Virus record (IMG/VR): IMGVR_UViG_3300038441_001652
Location: 1-36,492 of that record
DNA from: a virus
DNA: 36,492 nt
Strand: one strand, 5' to 3'
A model generated the notes under the pieces. That model was not told where the DNA came from. It made no database searches and saw only the letters and a list, made by a program, of their open reading frames with translations. A program made the translations under genes and the position numbers. Shown here piece by piece: positions 180 to 36,460 of the stretch (the first letter of the stretch is position 1; each line of letters starts with the position of its first letter).

Positions 180-225
180 AACATTATAATAACATGTTGA
201 CAACATCATAGCAACATGTTATATT
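180..225 (+). promoter_or_regulatory. Left early promoter with two 19-bp RHH operators
   Basis: A TTGACA (197-202) and TATATT (220-225) lie 17 bp apart, a near-consensus sigma70 promoter with an expected start near 232. Two 19-bp units, AACATTATAATAACATGTT (180-198) and AACATCATAGCAACATGTT (202-220), overlap it and begin 22 bp apart, about two helical turns. The first unit is identical to the one at 8608-8626 beside the RHH repressor gene. I infer that the repressor silences this promoter and the small-gene block downstream. Confidence 0.75.
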
Positions 226-255
226 AGTAATGCAACCAAACCAAAGGATGTTGAA

Positions 256-477
256 ATGAGTAATTTTGTTAATGATGGTTTATTAGATAAACAGTGGAAA
301 GAGGCTTATATTAAATGGGACAGTATCATGGAATGTATATCAACTTCGATTGATAGCACAGATATTGTGACATTGGCTAATATGTTAGCTGAATCAAAGA
401 AATATAAAAAGCAGTTAGATGAGCTATCTAACGCACGTTATGCAGCATGGACGAAATATATATTCAGGGGAAAGTAG
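256..477 (+). CDS. Hypothetical protein, 73 aa, first gene of early block
   Basis: This is the first gene after the operator-controlled promoter. It starts at ATG 256 behind an AAGG Shine-Dalgarno sequence (244-247). The product is small, soluble-looking and probably helical; the second half is rich in Lys, Glu and Leu and could form a short helix or coiled coil. There is no signal peptide or membrane segment, and I recognise no family. It ends one base before the start of the next gene, so the two are probably translated together. As the promoter-proximal gene of a repressed early operon, it is a candidate host-takeover or anti-defence factor, but this rests on position only. Confidence 0.7.
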   Translation: MSNFVNDGLLDKQWKEAYIKWDSIMECISTSIDSTDIVTLANMLAESKKYKKQLDELSNARYAAWTKYIFRGK

Positions 478-478
478 T

Positions 479-811
479 ATGAAAAGGTATCACGTAGTTT
501 TAGATGTGCGCGCATTGTCAGGTTTATTGTCGATACAACAAGAAGCGCCACTAGCAAAATGGGAAGTAACTTTCACTGATGTAGCAGGAAGTAAAAGTCA
601 GGTCTTAGAAGAGGCTTTTGCCTATGTACAGAGATGTTTAGATTATAGTCATGCAATACCAGCTGTGACGGGGAAATACAAACATCCAGTGCTGCAAGCT
701 AAAGTCAGAGAGATAACCATAGTTGAAGAGGGTGAGGAAGTTGCTAATTTCCATGTGCACGGCTGGACACAGAGCTGTTCATTTAAATTTTTAGGACACG
801 AGGGAGAATAG
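479..811 (+). CDS. Hypothetical protein, 110 aa
   Basis: I place the start at ATG 479, because AGGGGAAAG lies just upstream and the longer reading from 419 would overlap the preceding gene by 59 bases. The product begins MKRYHVVLDV and alternates beta-like stretches (residues 1-35 and 80-105) with a helix in the middle (about 40-55), suggesting a small alpha/beta fold. There are no membrane segments and I recognise no family. The next gene starts two bases after its stop, so it is part of a tightly packed operon. A minus-strand ORF across its 3' end is a shadow. Confidence 0.7.
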   Translation: MKRYHVVLDVRALSGLLSIQQEAPLAKWEVTFTDVAGSKSQVLEEAFAYVQRCLDYSHAIPAVTGKYKHPVLQAKVREITIVEEGEEVANFHVHGWTQSCSFKFLGHEGE

Positions 812-812
812 C

Positions 813-1091
813 ATGAAAGATCCATTAACATTGAACACTGAATATGTCATAGAACAGCTGAGGTCTCATCTTGGAATAAATCAATGGTACTGTGAGGAAG
901 AAGGCCTCTGCCGTGAAGAAGTGGAGTCTATGGCTTTAGGTGAGATGAAAAAGGCGATAAGGCTATTCGAACGTGATGACGACATGCATTGCAAGACAGA
1001 CGCTTTAGTAAGGTTGTCTTTGTTAGTGCAAGAGCTATGTGGATATTATTCAGACGCTGCTGAAAGGGCATACGAGATAGAGTGTTTATAA
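813..1091 (+). CDS. Hypothetical helical protein, 92 aa
   Basis: The start is ATG 813 behind a GGGAGAA Shine-Dalgarno sequence that sits inside the end of the preceding gene. The product is acidic and mainly helical, with cysteines scattered at about residues 27, 33, 59, 75 and 91 that do not form a recognisable metal-binding pattern. There is no membrane segment and I cannot assign a family. A gap of about 80 bases follows, with no convincing promoter, before the next gene. Confidence 0.65.
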   Translation: MKDPLTLNTEYVIEQLRSHLGINQWYCEEEGLCREEVESMALGEMKKAIRLFERDDDMHCKTDALVRLSLLVQELCGYYSDAAERAYEIECL

Positions 1092-1170
1092 TAGAGGCAA
1101 ATATAGCAGTGTTGACTAGGAAATGTTTTTGCTGCTGAATACACCGATAATAATATAGGAGAAGAAAGTT

Positions 1171-1605
1171 ATGCTTAGCACGTTATTTTTCATATGGTTG
1201 GAAGCAACATGTTTTGGTCTAGCGATAGTAATGATAGCTGTTGGCCTCATTACGATCATACAGATGATCAGTGATTATCTGTATAAGAAGCCGTCAGCGC
1301 AAGAGCCAGACATTGAAGCACCAGCGCCTAAGGCGCCCGTGGAGACACGAGAAATGGGAACGCAGACTAGGGAAATAGATTCCCACTGGGGCAGGGATCA
1401 TTTCGCTGCTCGTGCTGCAGAGATTGAGCTGCAACTCACGCTGCCTGTTATTCCTGAGCGCTGCACTAGGGCCTCAACAGTTAGGCACACCCCAATCGCG
1501 GTGAACACGGAGAGATTAGACCTTAGCACCGTGAACACAGAAATATTGGATCTCAACACCAGAGAGGCATTGTTGCAGTACCGCTTCCGAACTCTAATGA
1601 GATAA
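1171..1605 (+). CDS. Predicted membrane-anchored protein, 144 aa
   Basis: A strong Shine-Dalgarno sequence (TAGGAG) precedes ATG 1171. Residues about 5-33 form a hydrophobic segment likely to span the inner membrane, followed by a proline- and charge-rich linker (about 38-70) and a cytoplasmic or periplasmic tail. The tail contains a degenerate repeat, VNTERLDLST followed by VNTEILDLNT. No family is recognised. Small single-span proteins in phage early regions are often involved in superinfection exclusion or host membrane changes, but nothing here proves that. A minus-strand ORF overlapping 1398-1712 is a shadow. Confidence 0.65.
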   Translation: MLSTLFFIWLEATCFGLAIVMIAVGLITIIQMISDYLYKKPSAQEPDIEAPAPKAPVETREMGTQTREIDSHWGRDHFAARAAEIELQLTLPVIPERCTRASTVRHTPIAVNTERLDLSTVNTEILDLNTREALLQYRFRTLMR

Positions 1606-1614
1606 GAGGATATC

Positions 1615-1794
1615 ATGAATAGAATAGATATATTACTCAGAGCATATGACCACGAATTCAACCAGGAGGAGAGATATTTCCTGCTGCAGGAACTAGAGGA
1701 TGAGATTACCAAGGAAAAAGAGCGCCTTGAGCACGATATGGCAGTTGAGAATTATAAGCCGACACCTATAATCATTGACTACACACGTTTTTAG
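1615..1794 (+). CDS. Small charged helical protein, 59 aa
   Basis: This short gene lies between two larger ones. ATG 1615 follows AGAGGA, ten bases after the preceding stop, and the frame runs to TAG 1792-1794. The product begins MNRIDILLRAYDHEF and is rich in Glu, Lys and Leu between residues 15 and 42, probably one long helix or coiled coil, with an Ile- and Pro-containing tail. It is in register with the operon and fills what would otherwise be a 200-base gap. No family is recognised. Confidence 0.6.
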   Translation: MNRIDILLRAYDHEFNQEERYFLLQELEDEITKEKERLEHDMAVENYKPTPIIIDYTRF

Positions 1795-1814
1795 TCTCCA
1801 CCGCTGAGTAAGTT

Positions 1815-2057
1815 ATGCAATACGAATGCACATTTCGAGTTAATTACCTTACTGTGGATGGCGTCCATGGAGAAACCGAAGTGAAGGGCACTGTAATGGC
1901 CTCATCTGAGCAGGAAGCTATAGAGATAGCTAAGACAGCTTACATAGCGGTAGGGCACCTTACTTGTAAGCAGTTGAAAGGAAGGGGATATGGCAAAGCA
2001 AGCAATGTGCTTGATGGTTGGACTTATGAATTAATACACATGGAATCAGGAGAGTAA
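1815..2057 (+). CDS. Hypothetical protein, 80 aa
   Basis: ATG 1815 is preceded by a weak GAG-containing ribosome site. The first 30 residues are beta-like (alternating hydrophobic residues, as in YECTFRVNYLTVDG), then a helix of the pattern SSEQEAIEIAKTAY occurs at about 41-54. This layout is common in small phage proteins with a ferredoxin-like or KOW-like core, but I cannot assign a family. The stop is followed directly by the ATG of the next gene. Confidence 0.65.
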   Translation: MQYECTFRVNYLTVDGVHGETEVKGTVMASSEQEAIEIAKTAYIAVGHLTCKQLKGRGYGKASNVLDGWTYELIHMESGE

Positions 2058-2279
2058 ATGAACAAGAAAGAGATAATCCAGTTAGACTTTCTCTGCTACC
2101 TTAATACGTTCAGAGAACTTGACACGAATACACAGGACTTAGTGGCGAATGCTCATTTTGCAGCTATTGAGAGCTCTAATGCCCATTTCGAGGGCCTCAA
2201 TGCACATGATATGACCATGAATGCTAGGAAATATGACAGATATCTAGAGCTTATGAGAATCATATTCGAGAAAAAATGA
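2058..2279 (+). CDS. Hypothetical protein, 73 aa
   Basis: ATG 2058 immediately follows the upstream stop, with AGGAGAG a few bases before it, which indicates translational coupling. The protein is probably helical, with a short internal repeat around residues 30-55 (three NAH-containing stretches). There is no membrane segment and no recognised family. It ends the first cluster of the early block; a promoter-like -10 element and a 5'-leader hairpin follow before the next gene. Confidence 0.65.
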   Translation: MNKKEIIQLDFLCYLNTFRELDTNTQDLVANAHFAAIESSNAHFEGLNAHDMTMNARKYDRYLELMRIIFEKK

Positions 2280-2321
2280 ATTATTTTGCCACTACATATT
2301 AGACTACAGTAAATGTTGGTC

Positions 2322-2374
2322 TATAATGCCCTTAGTAGTAGGAATTGTCCTGCTACATAAACCAAAACCAAAGG
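2322..2374 (+). promoter_or_regulatory. Internal promoter candidate with 5'-end stem-loop leader
   Basis: A perfect -10 hexamer TATAAT lies at 2322-2327, but no convincing -35 element sits at the right spacing. The predicted start (near 2334) would put a 9-bp stem with a four-base loop (2335-2343 paired with 2348-2356, one G-U pair) at the extreme 5' end of the transcript. Then comes a leader with AACCAAAACCAAAGG (2360-2374), very like the leader at 234-247 of the first gene. A 5' stem-loop of this kind can stabilise mRNA; that role is inferred. Confidence 0.45.
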
Positions 2375-2381
2375 TACGAGT

Positions 2382-2681
2382 ATGACTACAATACAAGACG
2401 AAAACTATAAATCTGCTGAGATTTCTATAGCAACAGTCCGCAAACTTCTCGATGAGTTTGTACAATTCCATACTGCTAAAAGCAGTGAAGCTTGGGAGGA
2501 AATTGACAGTGCTGTGGAAAACGAAGCATTGTGCTCATCTTTGATTATCGATGATAGCAAAGGGGAATACTTGGGAGAGCTAGCTAAGTTAGCCAATCAC
2601 CTGTTTGTAGAAATCGAGGCGTTTTTCCACTTTATTCACGAAGTGGCCAACTCAGTTGATGAAGAGCTGGATCAACAGTAG
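2382..2681 (+). CDS. Hypothetical acidic helical protein, 99 aa
   Basis: The start is ATG 2382 after AAGG. The product is strongly acidic and mainly helical, with hydrophobic residues in heptad-like spacing from about residue 15 to 30 and from about 60 to 90. It has no membrane segment and I recognise no family. Highly acidic small phage proteins can mimic DNA or bind host polymerase, but nothing in the sequence singles out a target. It is first in a second early cluster behind its own promoter candidate, and is followed by a strong hairpin at 2690-2718. Confidence 0.65.
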   Translation: MTTIQDENYKSAEISIATVRKLLDEFVQFHTAKSSEAWEEIDSAVENEALCSSLIIDDSKGEYLGELAKLANHLFVEIEAFFHFIHEVANSVDEELDQQ

Positions 2682-2689
2682 TTAATTAA

Positions 2690-2718
2690 GTGGTGTGTGT
2701 AGTTTTTACATACACCAC
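2690..2718 (+). repeat. Intergenic 12-bp hairpin
   Basis: GTGGTGTGTGTA (2690-2701) pairs with TACATACACCAC (2707-2718) around a GTTTT loop, with 11 Watson-Crick pairs and one G-U pair. No T-run follows, so it is not a classic intrinsic terminator. It may be an RNA processing site, an attenuator or a protein-binding site. It sits nine bases after a stop codon. Confidence 0.6.
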
Positions 2719-2750
2719 GCTTACACCACAATACAAATCACAACATAAAT

Positions 2751-2966
2751 ATGTTAAAACAAAAAATACAAGAGTTGCTATTAGTGGCTCATGCGGTTAA
2801 CAAAGTAACTAATGCTTTCGTTAAGGAAGCAGAAGCTCAACCATACTATGCAACAGACGAGTTAGCTAACATGGTTGCAGAATATATTTTCGTACTAGAG
2901 CGAGCCGTTATAGACATGAAGAACATGTTCAGCTTACAGGGCAGGGAGCATAAACGTGGGAATTAA
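2751..2966 (+). CDS. Hypothetical helical protein, 71 aa
   Basis: ATG 2751 has no evident Shine-Dalgarno sequence; the upstream stretch is A-rich (ACAACATAAAT), so initiation may rely on an unstructured leader or on the hairpin upstream. The product is entirely helix-compatible, with two probable helices (about 3-27 and 34-60) and a basic C-terminus. There is no membrane segment and no recognised family. A gene with a good ribosome site follows 14 bases later. Confidence 0.55.
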   Translation: MLKQKIQELLLVAHAVNKVTNAFVKEAEAQPYYATDELANMVAEYIFVLERAVIDMKNMFSLQGREHKRGN

Positions 2967-2980
2967 TAAGGAGAGATAAT

Positions 2981-3343
2981 ATGCATGAGGAAGAAGGCGA
3001 CTTAGCACACAGGGTGTACTTACAGGCGCGCAAGAACGCTGTCAGTGATGATGAGTTAACAATAATCATGAGTGAGGTTCTTGAAGTAGTAAAGCAATAC
3101 CTCCCTGACGTGCCAGTAGAAGTAGAGGCTTATACTAGGCAAGATTTATTCGGTGAACATCAACCGCGGCAGATAAACTTCCTGTTAAAACATAAATGGC
3201 ATATAGCGCTCCTTGAGTTTTATTTGACACCAGAAGGGGTTCAGGGTAACAGACCTTTTACCCGCGAATTCCTAGTAAATAAACTACCAGCTGAGGTAGT
3301 GGCTGGCTATATAAGGGCAATCGAAAATAAGGAGAAACAATAA
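2981..3343 (+). CDS. Hypothetical protein, 120 aa
   Basis: ATG 2981 follows AAGGAGAG. The protein looks globular: a helical N-terminal half (about 8-42), then a beta-containing core with two Lys-His or Trp-His stretches (about 70-85), then a C-terminal helix (about 95-118). No catalytic motif or family is recognised. The stop overlaps the next start in a TAATG arrangement, so the two genes are translationally coupled. Confidence 0.65.
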   Translation: MHEEEGDLAHRVYLQARKNAVSDDELTIIMSEVLEVVKQYLPDVPVEVEAYTRQDLFGEHQPRQINFLLKHKWHIALLEFYLTPEGVQGNRPFTREFLVNKLPAEVVAGYIRAIENKEKQ

Positions 3344-3606
3344 TGTTACCAAGAATGTGGCACCATCTGTTTAAAAGAAGCTACGATTTACCAGCACGTC
3401 CTGCTGATACACCGGCACCATCGCCAGCAAACCGCGATGGAGAGCGTGTCAGCTTATGGGATGACGAAGATCCAGACCTCGTTGAGGTAAGGGTAGTAGC
3501 AGAGAGAACAGGCACGCCAACAGCTAAGTCTCCAACACACTTCACTGATAAAGTCACCTCAGAGAAAGAGCGTTTCAGACCAGGCTTATTTATTCAAATA
3601 CCATAA
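3343..3606 (+). CDS. Hypothetical Pro-rich, probably disordered protein, 87 aa
   Basis: ATG 3343 overlaps the preceding stop and follows GGAGAAAC. Residues about 18-32 are rich in Pro and Ala (ARPADTPAPSPANRD), and the rest is charged with few hydrophobic runs, which suggests an intrinsically disordered protein or a flexible adaptor. No domain is recognisable. It shares the tight spacing of the early block, so I regard it as real in spite of its low complexity. Confidence 0.55.
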   Translation: MLPRMWHHLFKRSYDLPARPADTPAPSPANRDGERVSLWDDEDPDLVEVRVVAERTGTPTAKSPTHFTDKVTSEKERFRPGLFIQIP

Positions 3607-3623
3607 AGACAAGGGAAAGTAAT

Positions 3624-3935
3624 ATGATCAAAGATAAAGAAAAATATAAACTCGAGCTAATCAATAAGCTGAGTGAATTAAGGTTATTAATTGTAGAGAA
3701 GCAGAAATGCATGGAGTCTACAATCAATTCATTACACAACCAGAAGAACAATTCGCACAACTATCACCTAGAATTAGATGTATTTCCAAGACAGGCGACT
3801 TACTATGCAGAAGAATACTTACAAGGCATAGATGATTGTTTAGGGTACATACAGCATGATGTAGATTTTCTAAGGAAATCAACGCGTGACTACATTCTTC
3901 TTATAAATAGGATGGACAATCCAGATCTTGTTTAA
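3624..3935 (+). CDS. Hypothetical helical protein, 103 aa
   Basis: ATG 3624 follows a purine-rich ribosome site (GGGAAAG). The first 45 residues have the heptad-like pattern of a coiled coil (many Lys, Glu, Leu and Ile), followed by a less charged region with aromatic residues (HNYHLELD, YYAEEYLQG) and a basic C-terminus. There is no membrane segment and no recognised family. It is one of the more AT-rich members of the block. Confidence 0.65.
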   Translation: MIKDKEKYKLELINKLSELRLLIVEKQKCMESTINSLHNQKNNSHNYHLELDVFPRQATYYAEEYLQGIDDCLGYIQHDVDFLRKSTRDYILLINRMDNPDLV

Positions 3936-3987
3936 ATCATAATAATTTAACCTCGTTTCCATAAATGTGATTATAGGATTAATAAAT

Positions 3988-4296
3988 ATGTCCGAACAAC
4001 AAACACCTAACCAAGCTATAAAGAACATTCAAATACATCAAGATCGTGTTTTAGTGCAAGAATACGTGAGTGCTATTGAAATGCTTATTGAAATGCTAGG
4101 TTCTGTATCACGTAACTTAGTACCAGTAATAATAAAGCAAGTTGAAGAACTTAGGACGACAGCCCCTGACAGAATGATATTTGCAAGTTATTACTTAGCT
4201 GCTGATGATCAGGTGAAAATACTGCCACAAGCGTCTTTAATGGCTATACGCAAAATCAATATTGCCTATAAGCAAATGTATGATTATTCGAAATGA
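3988..4296 (+). CDS. Hypothetical helical protein, 102 aa
   Basis: I take ATG 3988 as the start because AGGA lies about ten bases upstream; the longer reading begins at a GTG (3967) with no ribosome site. The protein is almost wholly helical, with hydrophobic positions around 35-60 (SAIEMLIEMLGSVSRNLV). No membrane segment is certain and no family is recognised. Its stop overlaps the next start (ATGA), coupling it to the diphosphohydrolase-like gene. Confidence 0.65.
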   Translation: MSEQQTPNQAIKNIQIHQDRVLVQEYVSAIEMLIEMLGSVSRNLVPVIIKQVEELRTTAPDRMIFASYYLAADDQVKILPQASLMAIRKINIAYKQMYDYSK

Positions 4297-4601
4297 ACGT
4301 ATTTTATAAGAATGACGCTGGAAAGCCGGACCTAACCCTAATACCCTACAACGCACTGTCGCAGGCCGCGCTTGTAGCGATGTTTGGGGTTGGAAAATAT
4401 GGCCGTGATAACTGGAAGCGGCAGAACAACGACAGCGACACTGTACAACGTTTCATCGCTGCTGCTCTCAGACATCTCTTCCAGCGCTCAGCGGGTGAGC
4501 AGCATGACGCAGAGACTGGCCTAGACCACCTCGCCCATGCTGCTATCTCGTGCTTGTTCGCGTTGGAGTTAGTAATGGAGGAAGTTGGAAATGAAAAATG
4601 A
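4293..4601 (+). CDS. dATP/dGTP diphosphohydrolase N-terminal-like protein (DUF5664 type)
   Basis: The protein has the layout of the phage DUF5664 / dGTP_diPhyd_N family: KPDLTLIPYNAL near residues 11-22, GKYGRDNW (34-41), AALRHLFQR (57-65), a D-A-E-T-G-L-D-H-L-A-H-A stretch (73-84) and a hydrophobic C-terminal helix. This is an all-alpha, MazG-like fold, and the conserved acidic and His residues are expected to bind metal and nucleotide. The family is linked to removal or remodelling of purine dNTPs in phages; the substrate here is inferred. At 102 aa it matches a single-domain member. It is coupled to the gene before it by an ATGA overlap and overlaps the next by 11 bases. Confidence 0.7.
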   Translation: MNVFYKNDAGKPDLTLIPYNALSQAALVAMFGVGKYGRDNWKRQNNDSDTVQRFIAAALRHLFQRSAGEQHDAETGLDHLAHAAISCLFALELVMEEVGNEK

Positions 4602-4992
4602 CGTTACCATCTTCCCTTGCGAACGACGTCTTATGGGAGCTATATCGTCTGATGTAGAAGATCAGGATACGCTCTATATATTTAAGATGAGCCTAATCAC
4701 TGATGTTACTTTCGAAAGGCTAGAAAGTGGATGTTGCGTAATAAAGTATAGGACCAGCCTCGGCAGGAGTTTTCTTTCTGCTACAACGTTTGAGGATATC
4801 TTCGAGGCATTAGTCTATTATTCTGACATCGTTAATTGTATATTAGATGGCGGTCACATGCTAACTATACGCTACTGGCGCGAGAAATATCCAGATTTCG
4901 CACGCTACGAGATAATCAGATTTCATGATCAAGAATACACTCCTAGCTTGGCTTTAACAGGAGGTAAGTTAAAATTAAGTTCACTAGTGTAA
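4591..4992 (+). CDS. Hypothetical protein, 133 aa
   Basis: I place the start at ATG 4591, eight bases after a strong GGAGGA site, rather than at the upstream TTG. The product is a mixed alpha/beta protein with no membrane segment; residues about 35-60 look like paired beta strands (CCVIKYRTSLGRSFLSA) and a helix follows. The family is unknown. The last codons and the stop lie inside a perfect 16-bp inverted repeat (4972-5013), so its 3' end carries a strong RNA hairpin. Confidence 0.65.
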   Translation: MKNDVTIFPCERRLMGAISSDVEDQDTLYIFKMSLITDVTFERLESGCCVIKYRTSLGRSFLSATTFEDIFEALVYYSDIVNCILDGGHMLTIRYWREKYPDFARYEIIRFHDQEYTPSLALTGGKLKLSSLV

Positions 4993-5013
4993 TTCCGCTA
5001 GTGAACTTAATTT
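4972..5013 (+). repeat. Perfect 16-bp inverted repeat at gene end
   Basis: AAATTAAGTTCACTAG (4972-4987) is exactly matched by its reverse complement at 4998-5013, with a ten-base loop that contains the TAA stop of the preceding gene. No T-run follows; instead a Shine-Dalgarno sequence (AGGAG) for the next gene comes directly after. It could be a transcription pause, an RNase III-type processing site, or an mRNA 3'-end stabiliser. Confidence 0.8.
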
Positions 5014-5022
5014 AGGAGTAAA

Positions 5023-5310
5023 ATGACTAATCATGAAAACTTTGTTTGGCTATTATTGCCTGCAATAGGAATATGCGTTTTTGTTAAGATGTATTCCTGT
5101 GCATGTTTATGCAGCAGAAATAAACCAAGCAATCCATGGGTTCACCAGCCGCTAGTCTCACAAGACGAAGAGGCGCAGGTGGCAGAATATAAAAAGATTG
5201 AGTGGATTGACGACACGCCTTCCGAAATTAAGGAGGCAATGCTAGACCGGGAATGGATACGTTCTATTTCTGCGACGGCCGTTATTCCGCCAATTAGGTT
5301 ATCTAGGTAA
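5023..5310 (+). CDS. Predicted small membrane protein, 95 aa
   Basis: ATG 5023 follows AGGAG. Residues about 6-30 form a hydrophobic segment with three cysteines at its end (CACLC), either a membrane anchor or, less likely, a signal sequence; there is no clear lipobox. The remainder is hydrophilic and acidic, then ends in a short hydrophobic and basic stretch. No family is recognised. Phage proteins of this shape include exclusion proteins, but function is unknown. Its minus-strand overlap (5142-5378) is a shadow. Confidence 0.6.
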   Translation: MTNHENFVWLLLPAIGICVFVKMYSCACLCSRNKPSNPWVHQPLVSQDEEAQVAEYKKIEWIDDTPSEIKEAMLDREWIRSISATAVIPPIRLSR

Positions 5311-5411
5311 CCTAGAAATATAGCCATGATCCATATTCTATGGGACAATAATATTAAGGGACTACCAACAACAACCACATATGGAAATTAACATCCAGGT
5401 TTGAGGTAGAT

Positions 5412-5837
5412 ATGGAATTATGGGTTATACTAGGTTTAGCCGCACTTGCGGTGCTCGGCTTCGCATTAACAGCGCTTTACTTAGGCTATTTTTCTAAGGG
5501 CAAACCTCCAGAGGATGAAGGCCCCCCGATGATATTCCCCCTCGCTTCTGCTTTCAATGATCCAGAATATTATGAGTATTTTGCCTATAACAATGAAAGG
5601 GGTCTAACAGCTAGGGAGCAAGGGTACCAATCAGCACATTTAATGTGGATGTTCGAGAACTTTATGCGATGGAGAGCATGGGAAGCAGGGGTAAACGATT
5701 TACCTAGATATACTACGCCCGACTTTCCTTTTTGGCTCTGGCCGGAAGAGATTACTTGGCAAGATGTAGTGAGAAGGGACGCAGTATTAGAAGAACTTAA
5801 AAGAGGTCCTGTTGTACTAAGGCAGGTACCGTTTTAA
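5412..5837 (+). CDS. Predicted membrane-anchored protein, 141 aa
   Basis: ATG 5412 follows GAGGTAG. Residues 4-28 form a clear single membrane span (WVILGLAALAVLGFALTALYL), followed by a Pro-rich acidic stretch and a Trp-rich soluble domain (Trp at about 79, 87, 89, 108, 110 and 115). No family is recognised. The gene ends at 5837, four bases into the end of the convergent primase-helicase gene, and is the last of the plus-strand early block. Confidence 0.65.
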   Translation: MELWVILGLAALAVLGFALTALYLGYFSKGKPPEDEGPPMIFPLASAFNDPEYYEYFAYNNERGLTAREQGYQSAHLMWMFENFMRWRAWEAGVNDLPRYTTPDFPFWLWPEEITWQDVVRRDAVLEELKRGPVVLRQVPF

Positions 5838-8299
5838 GCCCTAATTTTAGCATGCTTAGGGACCCTGTATACTGTGCAGGGTCTTCCGCCTGTTATTTGC
5901 TTTGTACGGACCTCTAGAACCCCTTGGCGCTCCATATCCTCGAGCAACCCATTACGCTCGGCTTGCTTCATTTCACGTGAGGCTTCGCCTATTTGCCCTA
6001 GGGTTACCCAATCTCTGTGCTTATGGTTAAGCTTCTGGATGGCTTTGAATAGCTTAATGAAAGAATCCTCGTGCTTGCTCTTACCTTGGTCATAGATAGC
6101 ATTGGTTATGATATTATCTGCACAGGCATAGGCTACGTCTTTCGCCCACTCATATATCTTCCTAGAGATAACTTCACCTTCATGGCAGATAAGGGAGATC
6201 TTTAGGGCTTGGTGAGGTATGCGTCGCTGGATCGAAGCGGCAACCAGCTCCCCTCGGTCCTCTAGGGTACTTGCTTGCTTACGTATTTCGTCCTGGAACT
6301 GAGCGGCTTCCTTAGCTAGCTTCTCATCTTCGAAAGGAATAAGCTTCGGGGTAAACTTAGTTGGGTCTCGATCAGAAAGCCCCTTAGGTATCGATACGAT
6401 CTTATGGCCTAGCTCCATGATCTCTTTAGGGATGTCCCTAGGATCATTGGTATGCATTTTGGTAGGGATGAAGCTCTTATTGTCTATGATAGGCAACATC
6501 CTAGCCAAGAACCCTCCACTTGCTGCGTCTGTAAGGTAGTTCTTATAGAACAGCTCGGGCTGCGCTGTACCGTACACTGAAAGGTGCGGGTAGTGAACTA
6601 AAGGGCTATTAGCACTGTCTAGCTTAGCGCCATATGCGGCAACGGATGCGTCTGTCATGCTATATAGGTCTAGCAAACTATCTTTCACTGCTACCATGAA
6701 GGGTGACGCGTTTTTAGCGCTGGTCTTGTCTAGAAATTTAATCTGGAATTCGCGCCATATGTAGATCGCGCTACCTCGTGAGTTAAGTAACTGCGTACCT
6801 ATACCGTGGGCAGACTCAGGGACCTGGCTGGAATATTCTGGCTGGATAACTCCCATCTTTGCTAGGAACTTCTCACCACAGATAGCGCCTGCGTCCTTCC
6901 CCTCCCCGCTCTTTGCAAGACCTACTGCATATAGGTTAGGCGAGCAACGGTTAGGGCCAATAATGCGGTGGTGATATAACCCTGCAAGCGGCACAAAGCT
7001 ACTAGCAAACGCCATAGTGCGGTTAGGTACGGGTGCTGTGCCTAGGGCGTACTCTGTCCAAGCTGCAATGGCGTCGGGCGCGGTATCGATTAGGTGCTCA
7101 GGGAAGTATTTATCCGTCATGATCGGGGCGAAGTCTTTGTCAGCCTCGTCTTCTGACGTAAACGTACGGCGTTCTAGCGGAGGGTTCTCATGGTAATCTA
7201 GGACCTGCACAGACTGTAACCTGCCGCGTATATCCTTACGCTTCACTACCTTGTAGCCGTTATGATGCTCTACCCCTTTGTGCCGTGCCATCCAGAATAT
7301 ACTTCCTGCCGCTACACTCCCATTAAAGCCCTTCCATCTAGACCTAAGATCAGACGAGCCCTTATATTTATCAGCGTCTAAAGAGGACCAATCATCCCAT
7401 ACTTCTATACCAAGCCCAGAGCTTTTAATAGCCATGCCAACCTTGAGCCACTCTTCATATCCGAACTTCGAAGGATGCATTCTAGGATCAGCTAAAACGT
7501 TTAGGATGCGTTCCCTTAGAGTCATCTGCTCTGCGTCAGTGCTTAGATAGGATTTGTAATCTGCCTTAGTAAAGAGAGGTTTATTTTCGTCCTTTACAAT
7601 GTGGATAACTTGGTTATATGATGCTTCGCACGCAGCAGGAGGGTATTCACTTATACTCAATGCGTTTGTCTCAACATCCATCTTAGATTTTTGTTTCTCT
7701 TCTGCTGCTAAGAGTTGTGTTGCGTCTATCAACTCGCCAGGACCTAATATTACCTCTGCCAAATTCCGCGTTTCTGCTGTACAGGATGGCAGATACCAAC
7801 GCCACGTAGGGTTGCTACTGCTAGGGTCAATCTGCTCCTTACCATAGGGGAAAGAAGCGATAACATGATCAGCTATTATCTTAAACTGCTCGCAATCTAC
7901 AGGCTTATCGAAGAATAATACCGCTCTCCATTTTTCCCTAGGAGCTTCATTCTCTACCTGCCGCATGTGGCAATGGGTAGTATGCAGGATGTAATAATAA
8001 CCCTTCAACGTCTCCTGAATGATATCCTTAGTCAGGTGCGGAACATTATCGCTCTTGTTGTCAAAATCCAACACTAGGCCAAAAGCCCCGTCTATGTGCT
8101 CTCTAGCGCAGTGCACAGGACCAGGGAAACGCGCGAGACTGAACTGCCTGTTCATCTTCTCTTCTTTGATGCAAGCCTTAGGCGGCTTGATATCATGCAT
8201 TTTGAAGAAGTATCTAACTATCTCATCTATAGTGAATGGATAGCGCTTACCACGCGCAGCGTCTCTAGGGTTCGCAAAGATACTAATTTCAACTTTCAA
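5834..8299 (-). CDS. Bifunctional primase-helicase
   Basis: The 821-aa protein looks like an archaeo-eukaryotic-type primase fused to a DUF3987-like helicase. Visible elements are the primase acidic motif VLDFD (76-80), RAVLFFDKPV (125-134), the D-P-x(n)-W-R-x-Y-L-P-S stretch (158-172), a PriCT_2-like domain (about 280-340, with WLKVGMAI and RWKGF), and an ATPase Walker A (about 462-470, SGEGKD). The usual Walker A Ser/Thr is Asp here. I use the TTG start at 8299 because AAGGGGG lies seven bases upstream and the next Met is at residue 34. It is oriented against both neighbouring plus-strand blocks and probably shares a transcript with the RHH repressor gene. Its role is to start DNA replication. 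Confidence 0.85.
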   Translation of the reverse strand: MKVEISIFANPRDAARGKRYPFTIDEIVRYFFKMHDIKPPKACIKEEKMNRQFSLARFPGPVHCAREHIDGAFGLVLDFDNKSDNVPHLTKDIIQETLKGYYYILHTTHCHMRQVENEAPREKWRAVLFFDKPVDCEQFKIIADHVIASFPYGKEQIDPSSSNPTWRWYLPSCTAETRNLAEVILGPGELIDATQLLAAEEKQKSKMDVETNALSISEYPPAACEASYNQVIHIVKDENKPLFTKADYKSYLSTDAEQMTLRERILNVLADPRMHPSKFGYEEWLKVGMAIKSSGLGIEVWDDWSSLDADKYKGSSDLRSRWKGFNGSVAAGSIFWMARHKGVEHHNGYKVVKRKDIRGRLQSVQVLDYHENPPLERRTFTSEDEADKDFAPIMTDKYFPEHLIDTAPDAIAAWTEYALGTAPVPNRTMAFASSFVPLAGLYHHRIIGPNRCSPNLYAVGLAKSGEGKDAGAICGEKFLAKMGVIQPEYSSQVPESAHGIGTQLLNSRGSAIYIWREFQIKFLDKTSAKNASPFMVAVKDSLLDLYSMTDASVAAYGAKLDSANSPLVHYPHLSVYGTAQPELFYKNYLTDAASGGFLARMLPIIDNKSFIPTKMHTNDPRDIPKEIMELGHKIVSIPKGLSDRDPTKFTPKLIPFEDEKLAKEAAQFQDEIRKQASTLEDRGELVAASIQRRIPHQALKISLICHEGEVISRKIYEWAKDVAYACADNIITNAIYDQGKSKHEDSFIKLFKAIQKLNHKHRDWVTLGQIGEASREMKQAERNGLLEDMERQGVLEVRTKQITGGRPCTVYRVPKHAKIRA
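7600..7608 (-). promoter_or_regulatory. DnaA-box match inside primase gene
   Basis: TGTGGATAA on the plus strand is the exact complement of the consensus DnaA box TTATCCACA. It lies inside the primase-helicase gene, and the surrounding 14 bases are identical to those at 35514-35527. One match inside a coding region may be chance; the pair of matches near the right end makes it worth noting. Confidence 0.3.
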
Positions 8300-8376
8300 T
8301 GTATCCCCCTTAGATAAAATAAGCTATTGGTTGCGTTCGTAAGTTGTAAACGCTATCATATCAGGAACGGATTAGT

Positions 8377-8562
8377 CTAGGGTAAATTTTTGTGCTTAGT
8401 CTCGTCATAGTTCGTATCGACGTGGTCCATAAGGATTTTAGCAATATGACCAGACAAATGACGGTAATTAACGCGAGCCTCGAGTACAAGTTTTTCCTTG
8501 TATTCCTTGGGAATCACAAACATTACTCGAGCTTCGTTTGGACCTAAATTACTAATACTCAT
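8377..8562 (-). CDS. Arc-like ribbon-helix-helix repressor
   Basis: I place the start at ATG 8562 (61 aa), behind AAAGG at a good distance; the longer reading runs back through the operator. The sequence NEARVMFVIPKEYKEKLVLEARVNYRHLSGHIAKIL fits a beta strand followed by two helices, the Arc/MetJ fold that forms dimers and binds operators through the strand. Operator units AACAT/ATGTT lie directly upstream of its gene and also at the left early promoter, so it probably represses itself, the divergent replication operon and the early block. The primase-helicase gene lies downstream on the same strand. Confidence 0.85.
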   Translation of the reverse strand: MSISNLGPNEARVMFVIPKEYKEKLVLEARVNYRHLSGHIAKILMDHVDTNYDETKHKNLP

Positions 8563-8574
8563 AATATGCCTTTT

Positions 8575-8631
8575 AACATTATAACAACATTGCGTCAGCA
8601 TGTTGACAACATTATAATAACATGTTATATG
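8575..8631. promoter_or_regulatory. Divergent promoters with RHH operators
   Basis: Minus strand: TCAACA (8606-8601) and a perfect TATAAT (8583-8578), 17 bp apart, drive the repressor. Plus strand: TTGACA (8603-8608) and TATATG (8626-8631), 17 bp apart, drive the replication operon. The 19-bp unit AACATTATAATAACATGTT (8608-8626) is identical to the left early operator at 180-198, and a second, weaker unit begins at 8575. The plus promoter core, TTGACA through TATAT, is also nearly identical to the left one at 197-224. Repressor binding would block all three promoters. Confidence 0.75.
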
Positions 8632-13612: not shown

Positions 13613-13858
13613 ATGGTCCAACGTGTGATGCTAACTACCAAACAAGCCGCTGCCTACTTAGGCACAACCACAGGCACAATGCGCCAATGGAGGCACACTG
13701 GGTACTATAATATACCCCACATTAAAAGCGGCATTAATTGCTACTATAGCATAGAAGCTTTAGATGAGTTCAAGGCTAACCGATTGTTGTTTAAAGCTAA
13801 ATCTAAGCCCGAAATTTTACGACAAGCGGAGCGTCGTATTGAGGTAGACCATCTATAA
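13613..13858 (+). CDS. Small helix-turn-helix DNA-binding protein
   Basis: The 81-aa protein begins with MLTTKQAAAYLGTTTGTMRQWRHTG (from residue 6), a clear winged-helix / HTH_17 pattern as in MerR-like and excisionase-type proteins, with a YYNIPHIKSGINCYYS wing (about 31-46). ATG 13613 lies three bases after the preceding stop. Its 3' end overlaps the convergent VRR-NUC gene by 56 bases. No integrase is present, so an excisionase role is unsupported; it may regulate transcription. Confidence is high for the fold but low for the job. Confidence 0.75.
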   Translation: MVQRVMLTTKQAAAYLGTTTGTMRQWRHTGYYNIPHIKSGINCYYSIEALDEFKANRLLFKAKSKPEILRQAERRIEVDHL

Positions 13859-32938: not shown

Positions 32939-34320
32939 AAGGACCCCTCTGGTTTTAAATAGTTTCTTTGACGTGGCGCATAGAAAAACGCCGCTTTATT
33001 GTCTGGTTGCGAAATGTATTCCGATATAGCCTTGGTTTGCCTTGGAGAATTCTCACGCTCCCATTCATCATCTAACGACACACACAGATAGCGGAACGCA
33101 TCTGCGAAATGTGAAGACCAGTCATGAAGTGGCTTTTTATCAAAGCATTGACGGTCTTCGTCGTATTTCTTGCGGTACTGCTTCAGTGCTTGAATACCGT
33201 TCTTACACCTCGCTTTGTCGAACCAACAACGAAGCAGCATAGAACGAACACAGTTGATGCCGTCTACGACTGGGATTTGTTTTACTACACGGAAGCGAAG
33301 GCCGAGGCTCTGGGCGTGTTCTAGGCGGGATTTACCCGTGCCAAGCTCTCGGACCTTGATATCATGCGGGGCATAATGTTCCCCGTATACGTATGGCTTA
33401 CTTTGAAGCAGCTTGATATAGTGTTCAAGCCCTTCACCAGTGCCTTCGTAACAATCGATTATTCTTATTTGGTTATTATGCTTTTGATAAAACCAGATAG
33501 TTGTGGAATCTGACATACCCAAATCCCATGCTGTATGGACTGGGAGTAGGGGGTCATACTCTATAGTTGTGAGACGGCCGTCAGCTTCAGCCCTGTCGAA
33601 CTGCTCGCTATAATAAGCACCAGAGATAGATCCGCGAAAACTACAGTAATATTCTTGCTGAATCTCTTCCTCGGTCTTGGTACCCTCTTCACGAATCTGC
33701 TGTATCTGTTCTTCGCTAATAGCATGGGTATCCTTCACAGTCTTAAGGGAAGCAAACCACCGTGGATTATCCTTAGCCATTTCATACAAATGGAAGAAAT
33801 GGTTTTCTCCGCGAGGCGTTCCGTTAAAGATCGCCCAACCTTCTTGCTCGATGATCATCGGCTCAACATAAGCCCAAAAACTAGGTTTAATAAGGCTATA
33901 CTCCGAAAGAACTGCCCCCTTCAACCCCGCTCCTACAAGAGAGTCAGAGTCAGCACCCACAAGACGGATCAGAGAGTCGTTCTTAAGAGTTAAGATCATC
34001 TCGCTACCGTTCTTGTGAGCGAGAATTTCCTTAGGAATAAAATCTAGATAGGCAATACCGTCTTTGGTTTTACCTTCCCAGATGGCCTTCTTAGCCTGAG
34101 CATAAGTAGGCAGAACATACCAATAGTTTCCAACAACACGATACGCCTCTTTGATCAAGTAATTGAAGCAAGCGAGATCCTTCCCGGCACGACGATGGTG
34201 CACGAGCACAGCCCGCTTTATACCCCCGTCCATAGCCTCAAAGAGCGGCAATTGGTATGGACGTGGGGTATACTTGTGCGGTAACGAAATACGGAGGGTA
34301 TTCACGCCGCGTATACTCAA
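32926..34320 (-). CDS. Terminase large subunit, 464 aa
   Basis: ATPase motifs are visible: Walker A-like HHRRAGKDLA (41-50), an atypical Walker B (VLSEYS, about 137-142), and the coupling motif FNGTPRG (165-171). The nuclease domain has WDLGMSD (265-271, with D266), a second acidic site at D289 and HFADAFRY near the C-terminus. This fits Terminase_6-type enzymes; it cuts and pumps DNA into the portal. The start may be TTG 34320 or GTG 34305; neither has a strong ribosome site. It is shorter than T7 gp19 (586 aa). No small subunit is recognised beside it. Confidence 0.9.
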   Translation of the reverse strand: MSIRGVNTLRISLPHKYTPRPYQLPLFEAMDGGIKRAVLVHHRRAGKDLACFNYLIKEAYRVVGNYWYVLPTYAQAKKAIWEGKTKDGIAYLDFIPKEILAHKNGSEMILTLKNDSLIRLVGADSDSLVGAGLKGAVLSEYSLIKPSFWAYVEPMIIEQEGWAIFNGTPRGENHFFHLYEMAKDNPRWFASLKTVKDTHAISEEQIQQIREEGTKTEEEIQQEYYCSFRGSISGAYYSEQFDRAEADGRLTTIEYDPLLPVHTAWDLGMSDSTTIWFYQKHNNQIRIIDCYEGTGEGLEHYIKLLQSKPYVYGEHYAPHDIKVRELGTGKSRLEHAQSLGLRFRVVKQIPVVDGINCVRSMLLRCWFDKARCKNGIQALKQYRKKYDEDRQCFDKKPLHDWSSHFADAFRYLCVSLDDEWERENSPRQTKAISEYISQPDNKAAFFYAPRQRNYLKPEGSLCLQ

Positions 34321-34477
34321 GTTGTTTGTCTCAACTATTAGCTTATAAGGTATACGGACATTGTCTAGTTAAAATTGAAACCTAGCTGTAATGGAATTGG
34401 ATTCCCGATTAGCCGGGAATATCCCATCTAGATCCCATCTAAAGTATCTAAAGTCCCTCACGTTGCCCTAAGGAAAT

Positions 34478-34542
34478 CTAGGAAATTCAGGAAATTTGAG
34501 GCTGAAATCAGGGTAATTTCCTAGAATTCCTGAATTTCCTAG
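34478..34542. repeat. 16-bp inverted repeat with CTAGGAAATT units
   Basis: CTAGGAAATTCAGGAA (34478-34493) is matched exactly by its reverse complement at 34527-34542, with a loop of 33 bases. The loop contains another AATTTCCTAG (34515-34524), so the unit CTAGGAAATT occurs three times in both orientations. It may be a protein-binding array or a cruciform. Confidence 0.75.
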
Positions 34543-34565
34543 AAGTTGCCGATTAACGCATTTCA

Positions 34566-34609
34566 CAACTAATCCATAACTAGGCCACAGTTAGTCCACA
34601 ACTAAGTTG
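34566..34609. repeat. Four tandem 11-bp iterons
   Basis: Four 11-base units lie head to tail: CAACTAATCCA (34566-34576), TAACTAGGCCA (34577-34587), CAGTTAGTCCA (34588-34598) and CAACTAAGTTG (34599-34609), with a consensus near YAACTARTCCA. Eleven bases is close to one helical turn, so bound proteins would line up on one face, as at replication origins. Confidence 0.65.
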
Positions 34610-34662
34610 TCCGGAATTTCTTGATAACTGATCCCAGAGCTAATCTAATAAAGGTCTAAACC

Positions 34663-34684
34663 GTTCAGAGGTTATGGTCTGAAC
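34663..34684. repeat. 7-bp hairpin
   Basis: GTTCAGA (34663-34669) and TCTGAAC (34678-34684) form a perfect stem with an eight-base loop. No T-run follows directly. It adds to the dense structure of this region; its role is not known. Confidence 0.5.
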
Positions 34685-34772
34685 CCTTCAACTATTGAAA
34701 AAAACAGGGGGGGTTAGGTTGTTTTTTTGATGAAATGGTTAACAAAAATTAACCCCCGTATAAATCAACAAA

Positions 34773-34786
34773 CCCCTTTAAAGGGG
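34773..34786 (-). terminator. Palindrome, possible terminator of methyltransferase gene
   Basis: CCCCTTTAAAGGGG is a perfect palindrome just beyond the methyltransferase stop on the minus strand and is followed there by TTTGTTG. The stem has little or no loop unless the central bases open, so termination strength is uncertain. It also touches the start of the 50-bp direct repeat. Confidence 0.4.
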
Positions 34787-34833
34787 GAGGAACACCGTTT
34801 ATTTTTTCGAGTTTTGACAACGAGTAGTTAATA
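34784..34833. repeat. 50-bp direct repeat, copy 1 (methyltransferase 3' end)
   Basis: This copy agrees with 35367-35416 at 44 of 50 positions with no gaps. It covers the last codons and the stop of the methyltransferase gene. The two copies flank the whole gene, 583 bases apart, which suggests duplication or recombination that inserted or removed a gene here. Confidence 0.75.
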
Positions 34834-35305
34834 CGTCAGTCATGATCCCTGTGCCTGGAAATAAATCATCAAGGGTATCTCCTGGTTGATACCCCAGAAG
34901 GTCAAGTATCCAGCCACAAAAAGCCTCAGGCTTAGCGCCAGTGAGCCCTTTCTTTAGAGTAATGTTGCAAGCTAGGTGATCTCTAATAGTGCTACGCGTC
35001 CTGTCTCCCTTACGACCGCCCATAAATACAACAGGCTCCCATGTATAAGCTGGGTTAACGTTAGGCTTGAATATAGCAAACGGCTTCACCCAGGCTGCTA
35101 TCCTAGCTTCCTTAGGGATATAAGGTAGTAAATCATGGAGGTTGCCACTAGTCATACTTAACGCCCAACCGTCAGGGTACTCAGATACCAGTCTATCGAT
35201 CAAAGACTGGTGCCACTCTATCGCATCGCATTCCATCCAGTTAGGATGCTCCTTATAAAGTTTACCGCATCCAAAATATGGGGGGTCTGCATAAGCGAAT
35301 TTCAT
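34799..35305 (-). CDS. DNA methyltransferase (DPPY type), 168 aa
   Basis: I place the start at ATG 35305, since the catalytic motif comes immediately after it (YADPPYFG, residues 4-11) and the longer reading has no better site. The SAM-binding motif DLFPGTG lies near the C-terminus (about 151-157), so the order is catalytic first, SAM site last, as in beta-type N6-adenine or N4-cytosine methyltransferases. It is short, with little room for a target-recognition domain. No restriction enzyme partner is visible, so it probably protects phage DNA. Its ends lie within a direct-repeat pair. Confidence 0.8.
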   Translation of the reverse strand: MKFAYADPPYFGCGKLYKEHPNWMECDAIEWHQSLIDRLVSEYPDGWALSMTSGNLHDLLPYIPKEARIAAWVKPFAIFKPNVNPAYTWEPVVFMGGRKGDRTRSTIRDHLACNITLKKGLTGAKPEAFCGWILDLLGYQPGDTLDDLFPGTGIMTDVLTTRCQNSKK

Positions 35306-35366
35306 ATAACACAACTCTATTTTTAGTTGAAGAGTAGATCTATTCTCCACACCTGTCAAAAAAACA

Positions 35367-35416
35367 GGGGAGGAACATCATTATTTTTTTCGAGTTTTGA
35401 CAACAAGTGGTTAATA
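35367..35416. repeat. 50-bp direct repeat, copy 2 (methyltransferase 3'-end remnant)
   Basis: Read on the minus strand, this copy still codes for LTTCCQNSKK, close to the VLTTRCQNSKK end of the intact methyltransferase. It lies upstream of that gene's start, so it looks like the relic of a second, deleted copy or the scar of a gene exchange. Confidence 0.7.
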
Positions 35417-35420
35417 GGTT

Positions 35421-35453
35421 GGCGAGTTCGCTAATCGCGAGGCGAATTCGCCT
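35421..35453. repeat. Tandem palindromes, 20 bp apart
   Basis: GGCGAGTTCGC (35421-35431) and GGCGAATTCGC (35441-35451) are near-identical palindrome-bearing units 20 bp apart, about two helical turns. The second lies in a perfect 14-bp palindrome (AGGCGAATTCGCCT, 35440-35453). AATAGG and CCTATT flank the pair (35413-35418 and 35451-35456). It looks like an operator or other protein-binding site, not a terminator. Confidence 0.55.
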
Positions 35454-35513
35454 ATTGTTTAACCAGAGGTTACCAGAGCAGGGGAGTAGTAACTTAATGT
35501 TCTATTGTGGGTA

Positions 35514-35522
35514 TGTGGATAA
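35514..35522 (-). promoter_or_regulatory. DnaA-box match
   Basis: TGTGGATAA is the exact complement of the consensus DnaA box TTATCCACA. It lies in the untranslated stretch (35306-35595) between the methyltransferase gene and a plus-strand small gene. That stretch also holds the direct repeat and the palindromes and has no credible gene of its own. Confidence 0.45.
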
Positions 35523-35595
35523 CTTGGGGGATAATCTACAGGTTGAAACGTTGGCCATGGACACAGAATGCGGCTGTGTGGTAGAATAGGGGATT

Positions 35596-35724
35596 ATGAA
35601 ACCACGCAAGTATAACATCCAACTGAAATCCTTCACCAAGTCACAGAAGGAAATCGACAAACTGATTGTTGAGTACTTGCAGCGAACGAAGAAACAAAAA
35701 ACCCCTGCTAAGTGTGGTGCTTAA
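35596..35724 (+). CDS. Small basic protein, 42 aa
   Basis: ATG 35596 is seven bases after AGGGG, a fair Shine-Dalgarno sequence, and the frame runs 42 residues to TAA 35722-35724. The product is strongly basic (MKPRKYNIQLKSFTKSQKEI at the start, TKKQK near the end), so it may bind nucleic acid. Its last codons are inside an intrinsic-terminator-like hairpin. No family is recognised. Confidence 0.5.
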   Translation: MKPRKYNIQLKSFTKSQKEIDKLIVEYLQRTKKQKTPAKCGA

Positions 35725-35742
35725 CAGGGGAAGTGTCATTTT
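35702..35742 (+). terminator. Intrinsic terminator
   Basis: CCCCTGCTAAG (35702-35712) pairs with CTTAACAGGGG (35720-35730) at 10 of 11 positions, followed by a short spacer and a run of six T (35737-35742). An A-run precedes the stem, so the structure may also act on the minus strand. It closes the 42-aa gene. Confidence 0.7.
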
Positions 35743-35834
35743 TTAAAAGAGATAACTCAGGACTAGTCGCAACGCTAAAATGCCGTCCGTTGTTGAAACA
35801 TACCCTAGAATATCAACTCAAGAATGTCAACCCA

Positions 35835-36405: not shown

Positions 36406-36460
36406 AAAAATAAAAAAATGTTGTTGGGCGAACCACACAATGTGCGGTAACTCGCCAGAG

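Follow-up and report, generated by a model that had tools for sequence, protein, structure and literature searches.

The closest published system to the arrangement described here is F55 of the archaeal virus SSV1, Sulfolobus spindle-shaped virus 1, a 55 aa ribbon-helix-helix (RHH) repressor reported to recognise an 11-nt site that is repeated several times at the early promoters and also at the promoter of the repressor itself (PMC5569661, PMC9608457). RelB dimers are described as occupying one DNA face across adjoining 12-bp half-sites (PMC2812701), so that head-to-tail binding, the mode considered here by analogy, has RHH precedents in both F55 and RelB. Apl of phage 186 is reported to bind cooperatively to direct repeats 10-11 bp apart, situated between paired early promoters that it represses (PMC7498355). 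A small repressor gene cotranscribed with a replication gene has been described for copG-repB of pMV158 and orf56/orf904 of pRN1 (PMC5717011, PMC4234260), and early anti-defence regulons of archaeal viruses are reported to carry a conserved regulatory sequence around strong early promoters thought to be silenced by a small viral regulator (PMC11065993).

In the present study, a phage record of 36,492 nucleotides (the window, analysed at its full length) was examined (Table 1). We favour, with moderate confidence, a reading of both repeat arrays and all three predicted promoters in which one phage DNA-binding protein, likeliest the neighbouring 61-aa protein, exerts negative feedback by repressing P1, P2 and its own operon. 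This would constitute a compact circuit, open to direct testing, in an uncultured phage: a small protein, two short targets on the DNA and three predicted promoters.

Table 1 Features of the analysed phage record
Feature	Position	Strand	Description
Phage record IMGVR_UViG_3300038441_001652	1-36,492		Uncultured phage; record completeness may be partial
Operator array 1 (putative)	180-223	+	Four 11-bp units: AACATTATAAT / AACATGTTGAC / AACATCATAGC / AACATGTTATA
Predicted promoter P1	197-225	+	TTGACA-17-TATATT, TG before -10; faces 17 small ORFs at 256-5837
Early block	256-5837	+	17 small ORFs (ORF list)
Primase, 821 aa	5834-8299	-	PriCT_2; PHROG DNA primase; TTG start
61-aa RHH-like protein	8377-8562	-	Proposed repressor; RHH identity weak
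Operator array 2 (putative)	8575-8629	+	Five 11-bp units: AACATTATAAC / AACATTGCGTC / AGCATGTTGAC / AACATTATAAT / AACATGTTATA
Predicted promoter P3	8578-8606	-	TCAACA-17-TATAAT, TG before -10; from promoter scan
Predicted promoter P2	8603-8631	+	TTGACA-17-TATATG; faces genes from 8693 onward
Genes facing P2	8693-13011	+	122-aa ORF, 46-aa ORF, Sak4-like ATPase, DUF669, Cas4-type exonuclease, helicase
81-aa HTH_17 / excisionase-like protein	13613-13858	+	Rival candidate binder of the arrays

The arrays, their register, their overlap with predicted promoters and the gene order are read directly from the sequence. The original prediction proposed a shared 19-bp operator. Two exact copies of its sequence AACATTATAATAACATGTT are indeed present, at 180-198 and at 8608-8626; a copy with three mismatches lies at 202-220, and the variant claimed at 8575-8593 is also present (94% identity over 16 nt between 8575-8590 and 8608-8623). 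Three matches were found in the record versus 0.03 expected, a number reached in none of 100 dinucleotide shuffles. The shared sequence is therefore real and far beyond chance, but the true repeat unit is 11 bp, about one DNA turn, arranged head-to-tail in both arrays with the consensus AACATNNTRNN. Units start at 180, 191, 202 and 213 in array 1, and at 8575, 8586, 8597 (AGCAT), 8608 and 8619 in array 2. A window-wide search for 5-mers of at least three different letters that recur four or more times in a row at an unchanging spacing of 6-30 bp found a single case, AACAT with a period of 11 (units 180-213); no such repetition was present in any of 100 shuffles. When a single mismatch is tolerated, the pair AACAT-N6-AACAT is found 12 times versus 2.78 expected (maximum of 7 in 100 shuffles), with seven occurrences inside the two array loci and the remaining five being lone scattered pairs. 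The seven adjacent unit pairs had matrix scores from 28.0 to 22.0 compared to 13.4 for the top 11-bp-spaced pair elsewhere, a ranking that is partly circular because the matrix was built from the nine units themselves. No further array of the AACAT type exists elsewhere in the record and none of 100 shuffles holds a comparable one; as the original prediction required, the motif was not seen at many unrelated positions within this record, its arrays being confined to two loci. A dyad, AACATGTT, accounts for 24 of 36 pairs over the nine units, and was discarded as an independent sign of a dimer because it is complete only in units also bearing -35 or -10 sequence.

Array 1 covers predicted P1, beginning ahead of its -35 box and reaching into its -10, while array 2 spans the P3 -10 and the -35 boxes of the divergent P3 and P2, which overlap at 8603-8606, before entering the P2 -10. 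Roughly 11-bp tandem sites, as at F55-controlled promoters, were thus found over predicted P1, P2 and the candidate regulator's own P3, bearing out the proposal that the second locus also covers the promoter of the 61-aa gene. The expected TTGACA-17-TATAT promoter is present at both loci, except that the -10 of P2 lacks its final T, and P2 is absent from the promoter-scan entries. Transcripts from P3 would have a leader of ~9 nt ahead of the ATG at 8562; an alternative 74-aa start for the small protein was rejected, as P3 would then initiate inside the gene. Genes facing P2 are, judging from their sequences, recombination and replication genes. Among the 17 early-block ORFs one passed a Pfam cut-off, a dATP/dGTP diphosphohydrolase N-terminal domain at 4293-4598 (PF18909, 4.4e-26). 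The promoter scan placed internal promoter-like sites in this block at 1745-1772 and 2300-2327, and the pair scan of the record found no AACAT array at either, so that the claimed control of the early block is suggested by the array over P1 and not established for the block as a whole.

Proximity suggests that the 61-aa protein is the most likely array binder, the start codon of its gene being 12 bp from array 2. The assignment of this protein to the RHH class is weak, with no convincing homologue. Its closest resemblances include Mnt (E = 0.79) and a two-sequence Arc/Mnt profile, against which it ranked first of 423 stop-to-stop window segments (E = 0.77; runner-up 1.2) and was equalled by 9 of 5000 letter shuffles, a score being reported for 3859 of the 5001 sequences. 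Other weak matches were to TraY (0.071, below cut-off), phrog_795 'partition protein ATPase' (0.072) and phrog_13358 of unknown function (0.087). No cut-off of a curated family was reached, an NCBIfam search was empty, and the Arc family PF03869 had no match anywhere in the record at E≤10, this model having matched 1 of 25 records searched (below cut-off) and 10 of 14 control genomes (two over cut-off). Hence, of the claim that one RHH repressor serves three promoters, the repeats common to P1, P2 and P3 stand, but the RHH identity reaches no family cut-off. No homologues were found in IMG/VR using peptide patterns, in phages and plasmids at E≤1 in one search (one match each at E≤10, with E=1 and E=4), or in 62 related or other records searched without a positive control. 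A structure was predicted by AlphaFold from the single sequence, giving an uninformative E-E-E-H-H model that is not ribbon-helix-helix (mean pLDDT 71.8; other four models 53-62).

The 61-aa gene is followed after a 77-bp gap by the primase, whose TTG start is preceded by a ribosome-binding-like AAGGGGG. No terminator-like site was found on that strand between the two genes, which are probably cotranscribed from predicted P3. Single-protein scans of viral contigs confirmed no relatives of either protein. Primase matches in 26 phage records were all distant, none covering 80% (~22-27% identity among the 20 matches listed), and an alignment search recovered one distant locus. A terminase alignment search returned 310 relatives, of which 80 were kept; the 47 of these records that were examined yielded no 61-aa protein (E≤10), no primase (E≤0.001) and no AACAT triple with up to one mismatch. 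Across 87 loci (998,174 bases), 5-mers running four times gave eight rows in five loci, AACAT not being among them. The sole stretch compared with phage records at the DNA level, 33000-36492, showed no similarity.

From these features we infer promoter activity, cotranscription, the RHH fold, binding, repression and timing. In the proposed mechanism both arrays serve as operators of a single phage-encoded protein that binds the DNA head-to-tail, with one molecule or dimer per 11-bp turn; neighbours would therefore lie on approximately one DNA face and occupy the array cooperatively. Early in infection P1, P2 and P3 would fire freely and the 61-aa protein would build up alongside primase, until filled arrays excluded RNA polymerase from all three promoters, shutting its own operon, the recombination and replication genes and the first early promoter. 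The outcome would be a brake that acts by negative feedback on early expression and on the dose of replication proteins, instead of a lysogeny switch. The original prediction of a lysogeny-like or delay switch in a phage with no visible integrase is in part upheld. One model each for tyrosine recombinase (PF00589), resolvase (PF00239) and ParA-type ATPase (PF01656) matched nothing in this possibly incomplete record at E≤0.001; the same models matched 14, 10 and 14 of 14 control genomes, respectively. These empty searches leave the lysogeny half unsupported and make the feedback or delay brake the better half of that guess, with integrated lysogeny and ParA-type partition both set aside.

The 81-aa protein has to be taken seriously as a rival, since direct repeats spaced 10-11 bp are what Apl of 186 and other excisionase-type regulators bind, and the two candidate binders present a clear either/or. 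The original prediction that the 61-aa protein is the only nearby regulator holds by proximity, but the record encodes a second HTH protein further along. Under this alternative, each repeat would be occupied by one monomer in head-to-tail order, as with Apl, and the promoters would be repressed in a delayed feedback loop, the 81-aa gene lying toward the end of the plus-strand genes downstream of P2. The protein exceeds the Pfam cut-offs for HTH_17 (PF12728, 34.9 bits against a cut-off of 27) and MerR_1, its top match among nine PHROGs is phrog_66 'excisionase and transcriptional regulator' (4.3e-6), TIGR01764 'excise' matches below cut-off (E=1.8e-4), and a PDB search at E≤1 gave a single match, to the recombination directionality factor RdfS (E=0.2). 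The array units are direct repeats one helix turn apart, and such head-to-tail 10-11-bp repeats are equally the hallmark of excisionase-type regulators, which counts against the 61-aa reading. However, HTH_17 proteins are common in phages and have many roles, the 81-aa gene is 5 kb from the arrays with none near its start whereas the 61-aa gene sits on array 2, and the integrase and resolvase models identified no partner. We regard binding by the 81-aa protein as unlikely.

A lesser rival, and a rather improbable one, is that the arrays are origin iterons at which the primase, or else some unrecognised protein, binds two cis sites as replication initiator, with the promoter overlap secondary or autoregulatory. 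Two-site iteron origins exist, as in phage P4; the primase operon is flanked by array 2, and the two array loci are AT-rich (AT 72% vs 56%). The 11-bp AACAT array recurs in at least 119 IMG/VR stretches, and among the matches listed 17 of 52 distinct arrays (one locus per array) fall within ORFs of 100 aa or more while 35 do not. Ten of these 17 ORFs were scanned: one, standing for 56 loci, matched DnaB_2 'replication initiation and membrane attachment' and two matched Phg_2220_C above cut-off, but three had sub-cut-off matches only and four had none. Moreover, both arrays in the present phage overlie predicted promoter boxes and finish within a -10, and no DnaD/O-type initiator was found among the ORFs scanned. 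Very unlikely, in our view, is that the arrays resemble each other simply as a repeated strong early promoter, through promoter constraint or a host DNA-binding protein. The core TTGACAACAT-N6-AACATGTTATA also occurs in nine viral contigs and one bacterial MAG contig, several with a start codon close behind (judged by eye; ORFs listed for three), so the core string can arise in strong promoters alone. This leaves unexplained the strict 11-bp register and units 180 and 8586, which fall outside the promoter boxes, and none of the ten core-bearing loci has three consecutive AACAT-type units in the DNA examined. These contigs, recovered with a relaxed form of the core, carry no arrays, and an exact-pattern scan of viral contigs for a stricter core found none.

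Repression by the 61-aa protein, the candidate repressor, would make this phage a fresh case of an already known kind of switch. Arc and Mnt of phage P22 are the nearest in sequence to the 61-aa protein, a resemblance not significant alone, and their operators have inverted, not head-to-tail, half-sites. The phage shares with the Apl and recombination directionality factor (Xis, Cox) family its 10-11-bp direct repeats at paired early promoters and an excisionase-like gene, but unlike phage 186 it has no integrase or further array seen, the candidate gene lies well away from the arrays, and the promoters are divergent with overlapping -35s instead of face to face. As in copG-repB and orf56/orf904 a small gene precedes a replication gene, here the primase; those are plasmid systems of copy-number control, and the portions of the accounts consulted describe no further, distant early promoter that shares the operator (PMC5717011, PMC4234260). 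The archaeal anti-defence regulons are described as using Aca8 (wHTH) at many single genes (PMC11065993), in contrast to the two loci here. The likeness to F55 lies in a small viral candidate protein with 11-bp sites at early promoters and its own predicted promoter, whereas F55 belongs to an archaeal virus with archaeal promoters, the repeat ATAGATAGAGT and a studied carrier-state role; the present phage gives no carrier-state sign, and its RHH protein and binding are putative. Tentatively, this may be a lytic-type bacterial podovirus in which one 61-aa RHH protein, encoded in the primase operon, silences P1 and both divergent replication promoters through helically phased 11-bp direct repeats, as a counterpart of F55 serving as a replication-dose brake (possibly also a superinfection block) without lysogeny. 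If the RHH reading is true, an F55-style tandem operator would occur in a bacterial podovirus in which no lysogeny genes were found, and the early brake that it forms would be coupled to the gene for the primase.

The 19-mer that the original prediction had read as a shared operator is indeed identical at 180-198 and 8608-8626, but in register it forms part of an array of 11-bp head-to-tail units at each locus (array 1, 180-223; array 2, 8575-8629). Unit positions 1, 3, 4 and 5 are constant in all nine units, position 9 is always a purine, and positions 2 and 8 are A and T, respectively, in eight of nine. AACAT is the sole 5-mer in the window (with at least three different letters) to recur four times in a row at one fixed period between 6 and 30; a comparable four-fold run was found in 0 of 100 dinucleotide shuffles. 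A genome scan for the shared motif upheld the link between the loci: AACAT-N6-AACAT with at most one mismatch occurs 12 times in the record (2.78 expected), seven of them in the two arrays, and a matrix derived from the very nine units it then scores gave 28.0-22.0 for the seven array pairs and 13.4 for the best pair outside both loci.

Predicted promoters underlie both arrays. P1 is one of two promoter sites scoring 11/12 within the first 18 kb; of this pair, only P1 carries a TG before its -10 box. P2 is missing from the scan list because the scan demands a final T in the -10 box; P1 and P2 share TTGACA-17-TATAT and differ in this terminal base. The -35 boxes of P2 and the divergent P3 share 8603-8606, thus the two promoters should compete with each other, and array 2 covers the P3 -10 box and extends four bases into that of P2. 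Promoter-like sites in the first 18 kb (42) barely exceed shuffles (36.8, sd 5.9), so the calls lean on quality, position and the arrays rather than number. No array accompanies further + strand promoter-like sites of the early block, for example those at 1745-1772 and 2300-2327.

Downstream of P1 lie 17 small + strand ORFs (256-5837), one of which exceeds the Pfam cut-off; its diphosphohydrolase domain may reflect altered nucleotide pools or modified bases. P2 faces Sak4, DUF669, exonuclease and helicase genes, with the 81-aa helix-turn-helix (HTH) gene further downstream. P3 faces the 61-aa gene and, 77 bp on, the primase gene, which starts with TTG preceded by AAGGGGG; on the minus strand, the interval separating these two genes showed no terminator-like site.

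Array units, predicted promoters and selected genes of the record
Feature	Position	Strand	Details
Array 1 unit	start 180		AACATTATAAT
Array 1 unit	start 191		AACATGTTGAC
Array 1 unit	start 202		AACATCATAGC
Array 1 unit	start 213		AACATGTTATA
Array 2 unit	start 8575		AACATTATAAC
Array 2 unit	start 8586		AACATTGCGTC
Array 2 unit	start 8597		AGCATGTTGAC
Array 2 unit	start 8608		AACATTATAAT (same as unit at 180)
Array 2 unit	start 8619		AACATGTTATA (same as unit at 213)
P1, predicted promoter	197-225	+	TTGACA-17-TATATT, TG before -10
P2, predicted promoter	8603-8631	+	TTGACA-17-TATATG
P3, predicted promoter	8606-8578	-	TCAACA-17-TATAAT, 10/12, TG before -10
dATP/dGTP diphosphohydrolase N-terminal domain	4293-4598	+	PF18909, 4.4e-26
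Primase gene	5834-8299	-	821 aa
61-aa protein gene	8377-8562	-	putative repressor
81-aa HTH protein gene	13613-13855	+	excisionase-like

Judging from sequence, we lean towards the 61-aa protein, whose start codon lies 12 bp from array 2, as the repressor acting through the arrays. Its predicted Arc-like character survives as a weak ribbon-helix-helix (RHH) resemblance (Mnt, E=0.79, weak; TraY, 0.071, under cut-off; phrog_795, 0.072, weak), but the Arc family PF03869 and NCBIfam gave no match. With a two-sequence Arc/Mnt profile it ranked top of 423 window segments (E=0.77; runner-up 1.2), and 9 of 5000 letter shuffles of it scored equally well. A single-sequence structure model was poor and showed no RHH topology, and searches found no convincing homologue (one match in plasmids, E=4; one in phages, E=1). 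The 81-aa protein carries an excisionase-type HTH, and according to PMC7498355, recombination directionality factors (RDFs) bind head-to-tail on tandem repeats that follow each other by one turn; in phage 186, the sites of Apl between the early promoters are direct repeats at 10-11 bp. Array geometry alone is thus no basis for choosing a binder; the 61-aa protein owes its edge to position, and the 81-aa protein is a credible but less likely candidate.

A rival reading takes the arrays as origin iterons. Period-11 AACAT arrays are not rare in viral contigs: a four-unit scan returned at least 119 stretches, comprising 52 distinct arrays among the matches listed (told apart by the first 27 bases; a single locus was inspected for each). 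Among these matches, 17 of the 52 arrays are embedded in ORFs of 100 aa or more, and three have a promoter-like string nearby by a crude test. Ten of the 17 ORFs were profile-scanned; one matched DnaB_2 (array L005, standing for 56 loci among the matches listed), two Phg_2220_C, three gave sub-cut-off matches alone (two DUF1376, one FaeA) and four had no match. Such arrays can thus mark replication regions, and in other viral contigs 11-bp AACAT arrays inside DnaB_2 replication-type and Phg_2220_C genes (L005, L008, L082 and others) suggest recurrent origin iterons of this form. In the present phage, however, the overlap with promoter boxes speaks for regulation; we regard iterons as improbable here and arrays without any phage regulator as more improbable still, while a dual role in regulation and replication is conceivable. 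The core TTGACAACAT-N6-AACATGTTATA also occurs in nine viral contigs and one MAG contig (L129-L138), by eye in several cases shortly before a start codon, perhaps through plain promoter convergence.

The 36,492-base record, all of it taken as the window, encodes a T7-type head-tail connector (PF12236, 4e-121), a major head protein, tail proteins, a lysozyme and a Sak4/DUF669/Cas4/helicase recombination-replication set. Its terminase is 44.6% identical to the best of the matches listed, from an uncultured podovirus, and 33000-36492, the single stretch searched, had no DNA match among 50,697 phage records. Since 15 of the 47 related-terminase records searched measure 38.7-43.3 kb, the present one may lack a few kilobases. 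Single models for tyrosine recombinase, resolvase and ParA-type ATPase matched nowhere in the record, in agreement with the earlier statement that no integrase is visible. Of the lysogeny-like or delay switch once proposed, a feedback brake is therefore the more likely form and lysogeny the less.

Near the right end, a 50-bp imperfect direct repeat (34784-34833 and 35367-35416; 44/50 identical, 20 bp exact, TTTTTTCGAGTTTTGACAAC) flanks an ORF at 34799-35359 (-), one copy over its 3' end and one upstream of its start. This ORF, possibly a cargo-gene insertion, had no match in Pfam and PHROG searches, and contains a DPPY motif resembling that of N6-adenine methyltransferases. The ~480-bp gap between the terminase gene start and this ORF holds a perfect 17-bp inverted repeat (34477-34543; TCTAGGAAATTCAGGAA and its complement), possibly an origin or control site.

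Our literature search found no bacterial podovirus described as pairing an array of this kind with a small repressor, which, given partial coverage of the sources, is weak evidence of absence. The RHH protein F55 of SSV1 (55 aa) recognizes an 11-nt site that recurs several times at early promoters and at the promoter of F55 itself (PMC5569661, PMC9608457), and repressors cotranscribed with a replication protein are known from copG-repB (PMC5717011) and orf56/orf904 (PMC4234260). The present array system would act like F55 or Apl, and its regulator is at most a candidate member of either family.
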